Assembly: GCF_001476285.1 (NCBI RefSeq)
Contig: NZ_LDRU01000009.1
Coordinates: forward strand, 1 to 64,000
Length of the DNA: 64,000 nucleotides
Direction: 5' to 3'
Source of the DNA: Microbacterium testaceum
GTDB taxonomy: Bacteria > Actinomycetota > Actinomycetes > Actinomycetales > Microbacteriaceae
In this document: piece by piece, positions 12,566-57,667 of the stretch
Position numbering within the stretch: position 1 is the stretch's first letter
Layout of the letters: each line of letters begins with the position of its first letter
The notes under the pieces: generated by a model
Seen by the model: the letters and a program-made list of their open reading frames with translations, nothing else
The model's database searches: none
What the model was told of the DNA's origin: nothing
Translations under genes and position numbers: made by a program

Positions 12566-13807
12566 TCAGCGCCCCAGAGCCTCGGCCTTGCGCCGTAGGA
12601 GCGCTGCGGCGCGCTCGTTCCGGGTGCGATCGGCGGCCTCGAGCAGCTGCGCCCGCGCCTCGTCGTGGCGCCCTAGCCGCGCCAACAGTTCTCCGCGCAC
12701 CGACGGGATGAGGTGCGACCCTTTCAGCACCCCGGCGTCGGCGAGGTCGTCGACGATCGAGAGTCCCTCGAGCGGTCCGGATGCCATCGACACGGCGACC
12801 GCGCGATTGAGCTCGACCACGGGACTCGGTGCCACGCGGCCGAGCATCTCGTACAGCAGGACGACGCGGTCCCAGTCCGTCGCCTCCACGCTCGACGCCT
12901 CGGCGTGACACAGCGCGATCGCCGCCTGCAGCTGGTACGGCCCTCGGCCTTTCCCCATCGCGTCCGCGCGATCGAGGAGCGCCCGCCCGCGCGTGATCGC
13001 CGAGTGATCCCAACGCCGCCGGTCCTGGTCGGCGAGGAGCACGGCATCCCCGTTCGCGTCGACGCGGGCCGCGAAGCGTGAGGCCTGCAGCTCCATGAGC
13101 GCCGACAGCCCCAGTGCCTCGGGCTCGCGGGGCATCAGCCGGTTGACCACGCGTCCGAGTCGCACGGCTTCGTGCGCGAGCTCGGTGCGCAGCACGGCGT
13201 CGCCGCCGCTCGCGGCGTACCCCTCGGTGAAGATCAGGTAGATCACGCTGAGCACCGCGCCCCGTCGCGCGGGCCACTCCGCCGGCTCGGGGACCGCGAA
13301 AGGCACGCGTGCGGCCGTCAGCGCCTTCTTCGCCCGGACGATCCGCTGCTGCATCGTCGGCACCGGAACGAGGAAGAGTCGTGCGATCGCCTCCGTGTCG
13401 AGACCGCCGACGACCTTCAGGGTCAGTGCGACCTGTGCCTCGCGTGACAAGACGGGGTGGCACGCCGCGAACACGAGCCGCAGCACGTCGTCGTCGATCG
13501 GCTGCCACTCGGCATCCGAGATCTCGTCGAGATCGGCACCCATGAGCCGGTACTTCTCGTCGAGGTTCCGCTGCCGTCGCCACCCGTCGATCGCCCGGCG
13601 CTTGGCGACCGCGGTGAGCCACGCCCCCGGATTGTTCGGGATGCCGTCCCGCGGCCACTGCACGAGCGCTTCGGCCACGGCATCCTGAGCCAGATCCTCG
13701 GCCGTCGCGAGATCGCCGACCACGCGGGCAAGCGCCGCGACGATCCGGGCACCTTCGATGCGCCAGATCGCCGCGACGCGGCGCGAGAGGTCGGGGTCGG
13801 AGCTCAC
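12566..13807 (-). CDS. ECF sigma factor, ECF42 group (SigJ/DUF6596 type)
   Basis: A 413-residue RNA polymerase sigma factor, about twice the usual ECF length. The sigma-2 region is AEDLAQDAVAEALVQWPRDG with a following GAWLTAVAKRRAID DNA-melting helix (about 36-75). Sigma-4 is LTLKVVGGLDTEAIARLFLV with the recognition helix PTMQQRIVRAKKAL. A C-terminal helical DUF6596/TPR-like extension starts near VIYLIFTEGYAASG. ECF42 factors lack an anti-sigma factor and are encoded with DGPF/YCII proteins. That is the case here: the GTG start overlaps the stop of the DGPF gene by 4 bases. It presumably drives its own operon under an unknown signal. Confidence 0.9.
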   Translation of the reverse strand: MSSDPDLSRRVAAIWRIEGARIVAALARVVGDLATAEDLAQDAVAEALVQWPRDGIPNNPGAWLTAVAKRRAIDGWRRQRNLDEKYRLMGADLDEISDAEWQPIDDDVLRLVFAACHPVLSREAQVALTLKVVGGLDTEAIARLFLVPVPTMQQRIVRAKKALTAARVPFAVPEPAEWPARRGAVLSVIYLIFTEGYAASGGDAVLRTELAHEAVRLGRVVNRLMPREPEALGLSALMELQASRFAARVDANGDAVLLADQDRRRWDHSAITRGRALLDRADAMGKGRGPYQLQAAIALCHAEASSVEATDWDRVVLLYEMLGRVAPSPVVELNRAVAVSMASGPLEGLSIVDDLADAGVLKGSHLIPSVRGELLARLGRHDEARAQLLEAADRTRNERAAALLRRKAEALGR

Positions 13808-14232
13808 CGCGAGGCCTGCTCCTCGCGCCAGCCCTCCTCCTTCTGGATGTACTCGTTGTCGGCGAACGCCGCGAAGTCGGTCTCGTCGGTCACGCGGCGC
13901 ACCTCGAGCTTGTTGCCGGCGATGAGGGGTGCTCGGCGCGCCCACTCGATCGCTTCGTCGCGCGAGGACACCTCGATGATCCAGAAGCCGTTGAACAGCT
14001 CGTGCGTCTCGCCGTAGGGGCCGTCGGTGACCACCGGCTCCTCGCCACCGAACTCGACGACGAAGTTCTGGCTCATGTCCTCGGCCAGGCCGTCGCCGGC
14101 GACGAGCACGCCCGCGTTGATCATGGACTCGTTGTACGCGCCCATGTCGTTGATGATCTGCTCGAACGGGATCTTCTTGTACGCCGCGTATGCCTCGTCG
14201 GTGCCGCGCATGATCAGCATGTACTTCGTCAT
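13804..14232 (-). CDS. YCII/DGPF-domain protein, partner of ECF42 sigma
   Basis: A 142-residue protein starting MTKYMLIMRGTDEAY, the typical YCII opening. The DGPF motif is present in the variant DGPYGETHELFNGFWIIEV (about residues 89-107), followed by DEAIEWARRAP. Proteins of this family accompany ECF41/ECF42 sigma factors in actinobacteria and may act as modulators or targets; their biochemistry is unsettled. The ATG at 14232 has GGAGAG about 8 bases upstream. It is the first gene of a two-gene operon with the sigma factor. Confidence 0.9.
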   Translation of the reverse strand: MTKYMLIMRGTDEAYAAYKKIPFEQIINDMGAYNESMINAGVLVAGDGLAEDMSQNFVVEFGGEEPVVTDGPYGETHELFNGFWIIEVSSRDEAIEWARRAPLIAGNKLEVRRVTDETDFAAFADNEYIQKEEGWREEQASR

Positions 14233-14355
14233 GGTGGGTTCTCTCCTCTGCTTCGAGGGCTGCGGATGCCTGCCCCTACTATCGCGTCGAACGGCGACGG
14301 GCGGAATCGACAGGCCCCGGGAAAAAGTTCCGGGGCCCGTGTGCGGGCGGTTCGG

Positions 14356-14600
14356 CAGAGTCGGAGGGATGCAACGGATTCGGATCTCATGGGGGTGTGC
14401 GTCCGATTCTGTGGCGCCGGTCCGATTCCGGTGCCCTGGTCGGAGCGCGCGCGGCAGGCGCGGGCGCCCTACCGGGGGCCGTGCTGCTTGCGGGCGCCTC
14501 ACCAGAATCGGAGGGGAACATCGGATTCGGATGCCGTGGCGGCATCCGTCCGATTCTGTCGCGCCGGTCCGATTCCGGTGCCCTGGTCGGAGCGCGCGCG
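14356..14600. repeat. Two direct copies (about 97 bp) of a nested GGATTCGGA-type hairpin
   Basis: Copies at 14356-14452 and 14503-14600 are nearly identical, with the last 40 bases almost perfect. In each, forward words (AGTCGGA 14359 and ATTCGGA 14378; AATCGGA 14506 and ATTCGGA 14525) lie 19 bp apart. Their complements TCCGAT (14402 and 14421; 14549 and 14568) are also 19 bp apart. Copy 2 adds an inner GGATGCCG/CGGCATCC stem. The array fills most of the 409-bp spacer between xth (stop 14642) and the DGPF gene start (14232). The spacer holds no gene I can support. It is the same family as 56584-56656. Confidence 0.75.
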
Positions 14601-14641: not shown

Positions 14642-15487
14642 TCAGCCGAAGATCATCGGCAGATCGTCGTCGTCTCCGGCATCCGTCAGGTCGAGGTCGG
14701 CGACGACCGGGACGTGGTCGCTCGGGACCTCGCCTTTCCGCTCGTTGCGGTGGATCTCGGCGCCCTGAACCGCGTCGGCGAACGCGCGCGACCCGAGGAT
14801 GAAGTCGATGCGCAGCCCCTCGTTGCGGGGGAAGCGCAGCTGCTTGTAGTCCCAATACGTGTAGCCGGTGGGGATGAGCGGACGGACGACGTCGGTCAGC
14901 CCGGCCGTCTCGAAGGCGGCGAAGGCGGCACGCTCGGGTGGCGAGACGTGGGTGGTCGCGCCCTCGACGACCGTGGGGTCGCCGTTGTCGGCATCCGTCG
15001 GGGCGATGTTGAAATCGCCGGTCAGCGCGAGCGGCAGGTCGGGGTTCTCTGCGAGCGTCTCGGCCGTGTACTGGCGGAGCTTCTCGAGCCAGTCGAGCTT
15101 GTAGGTGTAGTGCGGGTCGTCGAGTCCGCGACCGTTCGGAACGTACAGGCTCCACACCCGCACGCCGTCGACGGTGGCGCCGATCGCGCGCGCCTCCTGC
15201 GGGAGGTCGGGCCCCTCTTTGCCCTTCTCGAAACCGGGCATGCCGGGAAAGCCGATCTCGACGTCTTCGAGCGGCTCGCGGCTCGCGATCGCGACACCGT
15301 TCCACTGGTTCAGTCCGTGCGCGGCGACGTGGTACCCGGCCTCTTCGAACGCCGCATAGGGGAACTGCTCGGTCTTGCACTTGATCTCCTGCATCGCCAG
15401 CACGTCGATGTGCTCGCGCACGCAGAACTCGACGGTGCGGGTGACGCGGGCGCGGATGGAGTTGACGTTCCAGGTGGCCAGGCGCAT
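14642..15487 (-). CDS. xth: Exodeoxyribonuclease III (AP endonuclease)
   Basis: A 281-residue EEP-fold nuclease for base-excision repair: cuts at abasic sites and trims 3' ends. It has MRLATWNVNSIRARV at the N-terminus, the metal-binding Glu in LAMQEIKCK, GYHVAAHGLNQWNGVAI, the catalytic TGDFNIAPTD, and the terminal SDHVPVVADLD with the catalytic His. A short acidic tail (DAGDDDDLPMIFG) follows. The ATG at 15487 has TAGGCT 7 bases upstream (leaderless), whereas upstream in-frame starts run into repeat DNA. The gene is flanked on both sides by hairpin repeats. It is divergent from pyrE. Confidence 0.92.
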   Translation of the reverse strand: MRLATWNVNSIRARVTRTVEFCVREHIDVLAMQEIKCKTEQFPYAAFEEAGYHVAAHGLNQWNGVAIASREPLEDVEIGFPGMPGFEKGKEGPDLPQEARAIGATVDGVRVWSLYVPNGRGLDDPHYTYKLDWLEKLRQYTAETLAENPDLPLALTGDFNIAPTDADNGDPTVVEGATTHVSPPERAAFAAFETAGLTDVVRPLIPTGYTYWDYKQLRFPRNEGLRIDFILGSRAFADAVQGAEIHRNERKGEVPSDHVPVVADLDLTDAGDDDDLPMIFG

Positions 15488-15581
15488 GGCATCCAGCCTA
15501 CTTTCGGGCGGGGACATCGTCGGTCTCGTGGAGGTGGGTCGGGTGGGCTGTCGTGCCGTCGCGTCGGGCCCGTGCCGTCGC

Positions 15582-56583: not shown

Positions 56584-56656
56584 GGATTCGGAGACCGTCA
56601 CCGGATTCGGAAGAAATGGGGCATTCGGTCCGAATCCGATGCATCCGTCCGAATCC
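56584..56656. repeat. Nested GGATTCGGA hairpin, single copy
   Basis: GGATTCGGA at 56584-56592 and 56603-56611, TCCGAATCC at 56629-56637 and 56648-56656; both pairs are 19 bp apart. The outer and inner arms are perfect 9-mers. It is located 13 bases past the stop of the minus-strand LacI gene and 56 bases before the SARP-like start. Same family as 14356-14600. Confidence 0.75.
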
Positions 56657-56668
56657 GGCGCGCGCCGC

Positions 56669-57667
56669 CTATGGCCCCGCGGTGCTCGCGCGCACGACGA
56701 GCCGCGGGAGCCTCACCTGCACGCGGTCGGTCGGGGGATCGGCATCCTGGATCGCGGTGAACAGCTCGAGGCAGGCCTCGCCGACCTCGCGCGCCTCGAG
56801 GTCGAACGACGTCACCGTCGGGGTCAGCAGCGCGTGCATCGGCTCGTCGACGTACGCCGCGAGCAGAAGGTCGGTGCCGACCCGTCTTCCGGCGCGGTGG
56901 GCGGCTTCGAGGGCGGGTGCCGCCGACCCGCTCGGGCCCACGATGAGGGCGTCGACACGCTCCGTCGCGAGGATGTCGCCCACGGCCGCGTCGACCTCCT
57001 CGGCGGTGGGGATGAAGCCGATGGCGCGTGAGATCGGGATGCCGCCGCGCTCGGCGATCCACGTCTCGTAGGTCGTGGTGAGCTCACGACTCCACGCGGT
57101 TCCCGCGGCGGGGAGCACCGCGGCGATGCGTCTGGCGCCCCGGGCAGTCAGATGGTCGAGGAGTCCGCGGAGGGCGGTCTCGTGGTCGTAGACCACGCTC
57201 CCCGCGACGCGTCCCTCTCCGCCGACGAGGTGTTCGGCGCTGACCACCGGGCGGCCGGTGTCGAGGATGGCACGGACGCCGGCATCGTCCGTCGTCCCGT
57301 CGACCACCACGTAACCGTCGACGAACGCCGTCGGCGGGGTGTCGTCGTCGGCCTCGCGATGCGGGAGCAGGATCACCGAGAGACCGCGTCGGTCGGCGGC
57401 GTCGACCACCCCGAAGGCGAACTCGGTGTAGTACGGCAGGCGCGTCGCGCCCGGCGGAAGGTACAGCCCGATCGCGCCGTATCGGGCGGTGCGGAGGCTG
57501 CGCGCGGGCGCGTTGACGACGTAGCCCAGCGCACGGGCGGCGGCGAGTACGCGCTCCCGCGTCTCGGGGGAGACGCCGGCCTTGTCGCGGAGCGCGAACG
57601 ACGCGGCGGCGATCGAGACGCCGGCGGCGGCGGCCACGTCGTGCAGCGTCGGTTTGCGGGGCGTCAC
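56669..57667 (-). CDS. LacI-family transcriptional regulator
   Basis: A 332-residue repressor. HTH PTLHDVAAAAGVSIAAASFALRDK, hinge NAPARSLRTARYGAIGL, and periplasmic-binding-like sensor with LIVGPSGSAAPALEAAHRAG and LLLAAYVDEPMHALLTPTVTSFDL. It is divergent from the agmatine deiminase-amidase operon. The perfect palindrome TTAAACGTTTAA at 57717-57728 covers that operon's -10, so this protein probably represses it; the inducer would then be an amine or guanidine rather than a sugar, which is unusual for LacI. TACTGT lies 8 bases before GTG 57667. Confidence 0.87.
   Translation of the reverse strand: MTPRKPTLHDVAAAAGVSIAAASFALRDKAGVSPETRERVLAAARALGYVVNAPARSLRTARYGAIGLYLPPGATRLPYYTEFAFGVVDAADRRGLSVILLPHREADDDTPPTAFVDGYVVVDGTTDDAGVRAILDTGRPVVSAEHLVGGEGRVAGSVVYDHETALRGLLDHLTARGARRIAAVLPAAGTAWSRELTTTYETWIAERGGIPISRAIGFIPTAEEVDAAVGDILATERVDALIVGPSGSAAPALEAAHRAGRRVGTDLLLAAYVDEPMHALLTPTVTSFDLEAREVGEACLELFTAIQDADPPTDRVQVRLPRLVVRASTAGP

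Follow-up and report, generated by a model that had tools for sequence, protein, structure and literature searches.

Several described systems come close to the elements that we report here. In the REPIN-RAYT system, as set out in PMC3116915, dispersed extragenic palindromes consist of two inverted halves and form tandem clusters together with flanking sequence, while the cognate gene adjoins copies of its own family and gene and repeat co-diversify. GTAG/CGTC-tagged REPs are small palindromic repeats present in many copies (PMC3733652), and a word search of that paper's main text returned no Actinobacteria, Microbacterium, Clavibacter, Corynebacterium or Leifsonia. On the protein side, AbiEi and Rv2827c are described as binding two 23-bp inverted repeats across a protein-specific gap, 3 bp for AbiEi and 13 bp for Rv2827c (PMC7319586), and the homing endonuclease I-Bth0305I, an EDxHD protein related to VSR, is described as dimerising on a target of nearly 60 bp (PMC3943268).

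Read directly from the sequence, the window (the whole stretch of 64,000 nt analysed here) contains three elements of a GATTCGGA-type family, F1, and one element of a TAAACGCG family, F2. Each carries its word twice in direct and twice in inverted orientation, the two members of each pair lying 19 bp apart, and none is assigned a strand. The F2 palindrome (63–123) has words at 63 and 82 (TAAACGCG at both) and at 97 and 116 (CGCGTTTC and CGCGTTTA), with AAACGCG at 64 and 83 and CGCGTTT at 97 and 116. Its 7-bp centre is GTGTGCT, and the minus-strand gene 171–695 has its 3′ end 47 bp away. F1 palindrome a (14357–14429) has a 17-bp centre and the words AGAGTCGGA at 14357, GGATTCGGA at 14376, TCCGATTCT at 14402 and TCCGATTCC at 14421. 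F1 palindrome b (14504–14576), also with a 17-bp centre, is a tandem copy of a, 147 bp from start to start, with AGAATCGGA at 14504, GGATTCGGA at 14523, TCCGATTCT at 14549 and TCCGATTCC at 14568. The pair (14342–14600) sits in the gap between the minus-strand genes 14642–15517, which we take to encode exonuclease III, and 13804–14232. Because both elements are embedded in a 112-nt unit repeated at 14342–14453 and 14489–14600 with 85% identity, they reflect a local duplication and not independent copies. F1 palindrome c (56584–56656; centre 17 bp) has four perfect words, GGATTCGGA at 56584 and 56603 and TCCGAATCC at 56629 and 56648. The minus-strand gene 56669–57667 has its 3′ end 12 bp away from it.

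A first-pass annotation of this DNA had claimed that all eight arm spacings in the four elements are 19 bp and that the elements adjoin 3′ ends of minus-strand genes, and both claims agree with the exact words and with the compared gene positions. Its forward coordinates for a and b start 2 bp inside the word, and of the copies that it listed only c has four perfect GGATTCGGA words, a and b being imperfect. An exact four-word search of the window with 8-mers finds element c only, and 10 shuffled windows give no match. With 7-mers the shuffled windows also match (0–8 each), and a, b and the F2 copy are therefore not significant from the window alone. Directly adjoining the F2 element, positions 1–46 hold a near-perfect GC-rich inverted repeat (ACGGAAGGGGGATGCC...GGCATCCCCCTTCCGT) that looks like a terminator hairpin, and the GGCATCC/GGATGCC motif recurs across many of the gene gaps that we inspected.

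We searched the genome from which the window comes (3.9 Mb in 177 contigs; G000) for further copies. The F1 half-element GGATTCGGA-N10-GGATTCGGA, with at most 3 mismatches, gave 44 matches as compared to 0 for a reversed-pattern control, and the F2 half-arms gave 63 + 63 matches as compared to 1 + 3. F1 halves lie 45 apart wherever both are listed, with one pair at 46, and the geometry of the 24 F1 and 54 F2 elements extracted from this genome is nearly invariant. When the gaps were left free (loop 2–32, spacer 6–18), F2 kept one geometry in all matches listed from the genome and its relatives, and, apart from one loop of 18, the F1 matches listed either kept their register or were the known elements read off-register; these free-gap geometries, like those of the F3 family described below, were judged by eye on the matches listed. 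The F2 flanks have the consensus CA...TG, extended to CGCA...TGC in G006. In G007, the one complete genome examined, 33 of 34 forward F2 arms have a reverse arm at exactly +34 (by eye), the remaining one is unpaired at up to 2 mismatches, and two more matches, one forward and one reverse, are not element arms. Solo F2 arms are nearly absent there, and arms placed far apart around a transposase gene, as the terminal inverted repeats of a transposon would be, were not seen for F2 in that genome. The first-pass annotation had proposed selection on geometry across different sequences and had named freely varying spacing as one observation that would speak against it. The proposal is supported: spacing is near-fixed for both F1 and F2 in the genome search, and other species keep the same spacing.

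The F2 copies of the 3.7-Mb contig C1 of G007 are unevenly placed, with none in approximately the first 377 kb and the last 180 kb and two sites between 1.83 and 2.89 Mb (by eye). Seven contigs of the window's own genome (C13, C21, C35, C121, C151, C155 and C163) end inside F2 half-elements or no more than about 20 bases away from them, and F2 palindromes seem to break its short-read assembly.

The same layout occurs with other words across the genus. A word-free search of gene gaps at 80 loci, mostly Microbacterium with some Agromyces, for any 8-mer found twice direct and twice inverted (at most 3 mismatches of 32) gave 20 elements at spacing 19, of which a few may be chance or simple sequence, and no more than 3 at any other spacing between 11 and 30. 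Other species thus carry different words at the same spacing. Among the 20 is a third family, F3, with words that begin with CGAGAC and whose second half varies between species. Its free-gap pattern matches in 131 of 149 genus genomes, with up to 95 matches in one. We extracted 51 of these matches from seven genomes: both arms keep spacing 19 in 39 of them, and most of the others were read off-register. The F1 pattern matches in 62 of the 149 genomes, at least 12 times in eleven of them, including G145, where the matches listed are simple repeats. F2 is confined to 9 of 78 genomes (the window's own included), all Microbacterium, with a high copy number in four, and its pattern had 0 matches in viral contigs. 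Within a family or lineage the centre keeps one length, and this length differs between them: 7 in F2, 17 in F1 (18 in G087, in G150 and in one copy of the window's own genome) and 17, 18 or 28 in F3. A helical-turn rule for centre length, drawn from the 17 of F1 and the 7 of F2, was dropped because other families have other centres. Genome G168 (L405–L416) carries three F3 subfamilies (CGAGACACC, CGAGACGG and CGAGACCCC) and 10 DUF559 matches, and in Agromyces sp. H66 (L277) a spacing-19 palindrome with the word CGAGCGCG occurs twice, at 243 and 3320, about 3 kb apart.

We found that these palindromes flank nuclease-like genes. DUF559 (PF04480) is present in 148 of 149 genus genomes, and profile searches followed by inspection of the flanks placed DUF559 genes between doubled-word palindromes. 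F1 adjoins a gene for an AbiEi + DUF559/MTES_1575 protein (type A) in eight genomes, on both sides in six (G000, G037, G079, G111, G112 and G115) and on one side in two (G087 and G101), and the eight proteins form one clade (starred, 97) among 51 in the tree. In the window's own genome, contig C113 carries this gene, bracketed by the F1 copies at 68101 and 69163. Two further F1-rich genomes, G085 and G095, have four DUF559 genes each, and the single one fetched from either (L482 and L429) is another paralogue and has no F1 flank; the survey of F1 partners left out the DUF559 genes of two F1 genomes, G044 and G150.

F2 has a partner of a second kind (type B), a protein of about 300 aa whose gene lies between F2 copies in G006, G007 and G027; on contig C163 of the window's own genome it has a whole F2 element on one side and, at the contig end, half of one on the other. 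These are all four of the F2-rich genomes found. A type B homologue (E = 4e-53 to the F2 partner) also lies between CGAGAC F3 palindromes in G150, one of which overlaps its 3′ end. This F3 link comes from one locus only, and at three other F3 loci with close element pairs the intervening genes are presumably ordinary. The nuclease genes of the window's own genome are on contigs other than the window's.

Two DUF559 genes outside the F1 clade, L451 (G133) and L454 (G160), adjoin GAATCGGA words at spacing 18, within 3 and 4 mismatches, respectively, and the F1 word may thus also be read at that spacing. The flanks of L427, L433, L447, L475 and L478, a separate DUF559 branch, show spacing-18 palindromes with CAGG in the word (e.g. 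AGAACAGG), and in L207, L208 and L218 gene gaps also contain AGAACAGG directly repeated at spacing 19. Beyond the genus, plasmid tblastn with one type A protein and with the F2 partner matched 1 and 2 Tsukamurella records, respectively, at 30–46% identity, annotated as AbiEi antitoxin or hypothetical. Phage tblastn with the F1 partner matched one unannotated 4.9-kb record (28% identity over 89%, E 6e-15).

We compared DUF559 genes with 240 control genes drawn at random from similar-sized genes in loci L204–L283. Among 29 DUF559 genes chosen by score alone, a set free of author choice (L425–L454, where 29 of 30 loci yielded a gene by profile), 11 have a doubled-word palindrome in their flanks and 4 have one on both sides, as compared to 6 and 0 of the controls (Fisher P-values are 2.6e-8 and 1.1e-4, respectively). 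In the full set of 52 genes, 24 are flanked, against the same 6 of 240 controls, and 28 have no palindrome at the threshold used; 23 of these 52 were chosen by us, 6 because of F1 (L285, L294, L303, L310, L111 and L461) and 17 by hand (L471–L487), several of the latter because their genomes carry many elements. The set left out the duplicate-locus copies L021, L022 and L110 and the re-fetched L462–L465. Although spacings from 14 to 24 were scanned, the 32 palindromes beside the 52 genes all have spacing 18 (11 cases) or 19 (21 cases). An independent count of 9-mers shared between both flanks reached 12, the 99th percentile of 482 control genes, in 17 of 35 tested entries, a count lowered by some gene starts set too early. 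One locus was entered twice, and another entry lay too close to the end of its locus. Copies under other ids (L021, L022, L110, L426, L446, L448 and L453) were left out of this count. Palindrome spacing and the F1 word track the phylogeny of the nucleases: over 24 labelled rows, spacing 18 or 19 requires 3 changes, as compared to a shuffled mean of 7.5, and none of 200 shuffles was as low.

Type A proteins combine an AbiEi_4 winged helix with a DUF559/MTES_1575 nuclease domain. The AbiEi_4 domain is found in 6 of 14, 9 of the 14 having been entered without their N-terminus, and the residues E181, D207, D219-G220 and H224 are conserved in 14 of 14, so that type A shows both the nuclease-domain homology and the conserved acidic residues expected of EDxHD enzymes. 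Their relatives in the PDB are 3hrl (1.8e-7) and 3r3p, a "mobile intron protein" (0.0038), which we take to be I-Bth0305I. Type B is matched by the PADLOC AbiEi model (8e-12), falls below threshold against DUF559 (0.069) and has no solved-structure match in the PDB. Its residues E197, D228, E239, D241 and K245 are invariant in 5 of 5 proteins, a motif that we read as that of a putative PD-(D/E)XK nuclease.

These observations make it probable that the palindromes are dispersed binding sites of AbiEi-nuclease dyads, each family having its own cognate nuclease. The partner proteins would be two-domain proteins, joining an AbiEi-type winged helix to a DUF559/MTES_1575 or related PD-(D/E)XK/EDxHD-like nuclease. 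The cognate gene would sit between copies of its own palindrome, and the other copies would be non-autonomous repeats dispersed mainly in 3′ gene gaps. The winged helix may read the 8-bp words as double-stranded DNA, two per arm of about 28 bp, and a dimer or tetramer could bridge the inverted arms. The nuclease would then nick or cut at the palindrome or close by, and when the cut site is repaired or copied, the palindromes would spread and become homogenised. Word conservation and fixed geometry would reflect binding, and loss of the cognate nuclease would let copies decay, giving patchy decay. Two arms of about 28 bp around a fixed centre would fit a fusion of AbiEi-type and EDxHD-type binding. 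We give about an even chance to a stronger version of this proposal: that the pairs are undescribed selfish dyads in which AbiEi-DUF559-type nucleases copy their own palindrome of about 60–80 bp by site-specific cutting and repair, addressed through 8-bp words repeated in each arm at a spacing of 18 or 19 bp.

Like REPIN-RAYT elements, the Microbacterium palindromes are dispersed, extragenic and present in many copies, consist of two inverted halves and form tandem clusters, with a gene that stands beside its own family and diversifies together with it. Unlike them, they lack the Y1 transposase that defines that system, each arm carries its word twice at 18 or 19 bp, F2 arms hardly ever occur alone in the complete genome, and the partner is an AbiEi-type protein with a nuclease domain. 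The REP-associated tyrosine transposase (RAYT; profile PF01797) that the first-pass annotation had suggested looking for is absent from the window's own genome; of 149 genus genomes only G041 carries it, and there F1 and F2 have no match and F3 has 5. As in the type IV antitoxin operators of AbiEi and Rv2827c, an AbiEi-type domain goes together with two long inverted sites across a short gap, but here the domain is fused to a nuclease domain and the sites lie on both sides of the gene, in tens of copies that in the window's own genome are mostly away from promoters. As in I-Bth0305I, a DUF559-type domain (the 3r3p match) is paired with a long target, its length being near the 61–78 bp of the palindromes. 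In contrast to homing by I-Bth0305I, no intron, intein or interrupted target was seen; the gene has a whole palindrome on either side in 6 of 8 cases for F1 and in 3 of 4 for F2, and cutting is here a predicted activity.

By analogy with REPIN-RAYT, the dyads would be a system new in kind with an unrelated enzyme, because the literature that we searched (titles and abstract openings, with subscription journals thinly covered) does not tie DUF559 or AbiEi proteins to dispersed palindromes. Pfam labels DUF559 a "protein of unknown function". The palindromes offer a concrete candidate DNA partner with a readable site code, so that its function becomes directly testable. If the proposal is true, the REPIN-RAYT way of life arose with an unrelated enzyme, and the genus would be a natural library of long-site nucleases with one scaffold and readable, diverged specificities. 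Since the words differ between nuclease lineages, many natural pairs would be available for learning how such a domain reads DNA.

We consider it unlikely that the palindromes are instead autoregulatory operators of the AbiEi-type domain, with the dispersed copies being duplicated operators or a regulon and not nuclease products. The paired 23-bp sites of AbiEi and Rv2827c, with their 3- and 13-bp gaps (PMC7319586), are near in size to arms of about 28 bp around a 7–18-bp centre, 7 of the 8 genes flanked by F1 have a palindrome upstream, and the palindromes beside the nuclease genes could be autoregulatory only. However, palindromes also lie downstream of the nuclease gene, the putative catalytic residues are conserved in both types A and B, and the copies in the window's own genome are mostly in 3′ gaps. 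There, 67 classified elements divide into 36 in convergent, 26 in co-directional and 2 in divergent gaps, with 3 overlapping a called gene, as compared to 83 convergent, 218 co-directional and 207 divergent among 508 background gaps of at least 100 bp. Divergent gaps hold 3 of 25 elements in G027 and, against this trend, 11 of 27 in G006. The neighbors are also varied: Pfam annotation of 115 proteins flanking dispersed sites gave no enriched family, with none in more than 4.

It is very unlikely that the palindromes are RNA elements, such as terminators or 3′ hairpins, whose fold is selected while the nuclease neighborhood is incidental. The preference for convergent gaps would suit this explanation, as would the strong predicted folds of F2 and F3 (z-scores between −7.3 and −12.5), but F1 folds are weak on one strand (z-scores between −0.9 and −1.9, and between −0.9 and −4.3 on the other). 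Furthermore, F2 arms do not covary. Their identity in variable columns is no higher within elements than between them in three genomes (0.540 vs 0.578, 0.646 vs 0.669 and 0.638 vs 0.640), and F2 spacer covariation was not found. F2 centres are less self-complementary than permuted centres (0.21 vs 0.415 in the window's own genome, and 0.262 vs 0.399 and 0.357 vs 0.454 elsewhere). Rfam has no match in the window at the gathering threshold, and at one orthologous gap the genes have their own GC-rich hairpin with the element beyond it (by eye).

F1 shows little covariation. Across 74 elements its spacers do not covary (0.486 vs 0.476, P-value is 0.24); in the window's own genome alone, local duplicates included, they do (0.526 vs 0.452, P-value is 0.007), as do its arms (0.591 vs 0.514, P-value is 0.0005). 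The inner words covary weakly (0.62 vs 0.48, P-value is 0.0015). At the two variable middle positions of the word, only the inner-inner (P-value is 0.0015) and right-arm (P-value is 0.001) pairings exceed permutation and the other four do not. Bistable pairing, with the four F1 words equal within an element, was considered and rejected, since the words are mostly as the genome consensus predicts.

The inner words of F2 are asymmetric (A/G) in two genomes, in 43 of 54 and 18 of 27 elements, but not in G006 (3 of 28), and we asked which strand is the G·U-capable one. For 10 co-directional asymmetric elements of the window's own genome it is the sense strand in 5 and the antisense strand in 5, which shows no strand bias. 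In convergent gaps of that genome it is the strand of the right-hand gene in 19 cases and of the left-hand gene in 6, with left and right assigned arbitrarily and each tandem copy counted on its own; over all genomes, the nearer gene accounts for 19 of 33 convergent-gap cases. The bistable or switching RNA folds suggested by the first-pass annotation are thus unsupported, F2 arms showing no covariation, F1 hardly any, and the strands no bias. A protein reading two sites per arm, its other example, is the better of the two.

The compensatory changes that it had asked for are absent from F2 arms and spacers and present in the inner hairpin of F3 elements with a 28-nt loop. In this hairpin, 67 cells are changed on both sides as compared to 31.9 when shuffled, and covariation is 0.270 vs 0.123, with 0 of 500 shuffles reaching either value. 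F3 spacers show no covariation in two loop-28 genomes and covary in G168 (8 elements, P-value is 0.02). F2, and largely F1, therefore look to be read as sequence rather than as fold, and the folded form may matter in part of F3, where palindrome-correcting mutation could be an alternative source of the compensatory changes.

The least probable explanation is a REP/REPIN or MITE moved by an unseen conventional transposase, with AbiEi-nuclease genes as insertion hot spots or passengers, for although the high copy number, tandem arrays, patchy distribution and lineage-fixed loop length (F1 17 in most genomes, 18 in G087 and G150) would suit it, the single RAYT-bearing genome among 149, the F2 arms of G007 paired at +34 in place of a transposon with arms as its far-apart ends, and the tracking of the nuclease tree by palindrome spacing and F1 word all speak against it.

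The preferred reading, cognate sites of AbiEi-nuclease dyads, can be set beside the distribution of elements at orthologous gaps. We compared one gap in 30 genomes by eye. The genes of the M. testaceum group have the GC-rich hairpin of their own mentioned above. Beyond this hairpin stands an intact or almost intact F2 element in G000, G006, G007, G027, G101 and G103, an altered one in G115, and one that has decayed but kept its register in G084, G104 and G124. In G116 and G170 the same place is taken by an F3 element, and the remaining genomes are empty or hold other repeats, G044 having given no sequence. The exonuclease gap of the window, also compared by eye, is empty (116–135 bp) in five related genomes; it holds two F1 elements in M. 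testaceum NBRC 12675, two elements with other words in VKM Ac-2923 and a degenerate F1 in one further relative. No clear target-site duplication was seen by eye at this gap, where one insert is flanked on each side by GGCATCCG, seemingly a common word. The spacer and loop of orthologous F2 sites do not clearly resemble each other more than those of other sites do (0.591 vs 0.580 for G000 and G027, 11 site pairs; 0.624 vs 0.528 for G000 and G006, 5 site pairs).

Other repeats also occupy these gaps. In L326 (G024) and L327 (G094), the gap after the orthologue of L149:2152–3255, the same gap that holds F2 in relatives, contains inverted and tandem repeats of a CTTCGACAGGCTCAG type, another repeat family. 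Other long hairpins of a different design stand at the orthologous F2/F3 gap in L344 (G140) and L352 (G012), and in L333 (G006) imperfect GC-rich tandem repeats adjoin the F2 element.
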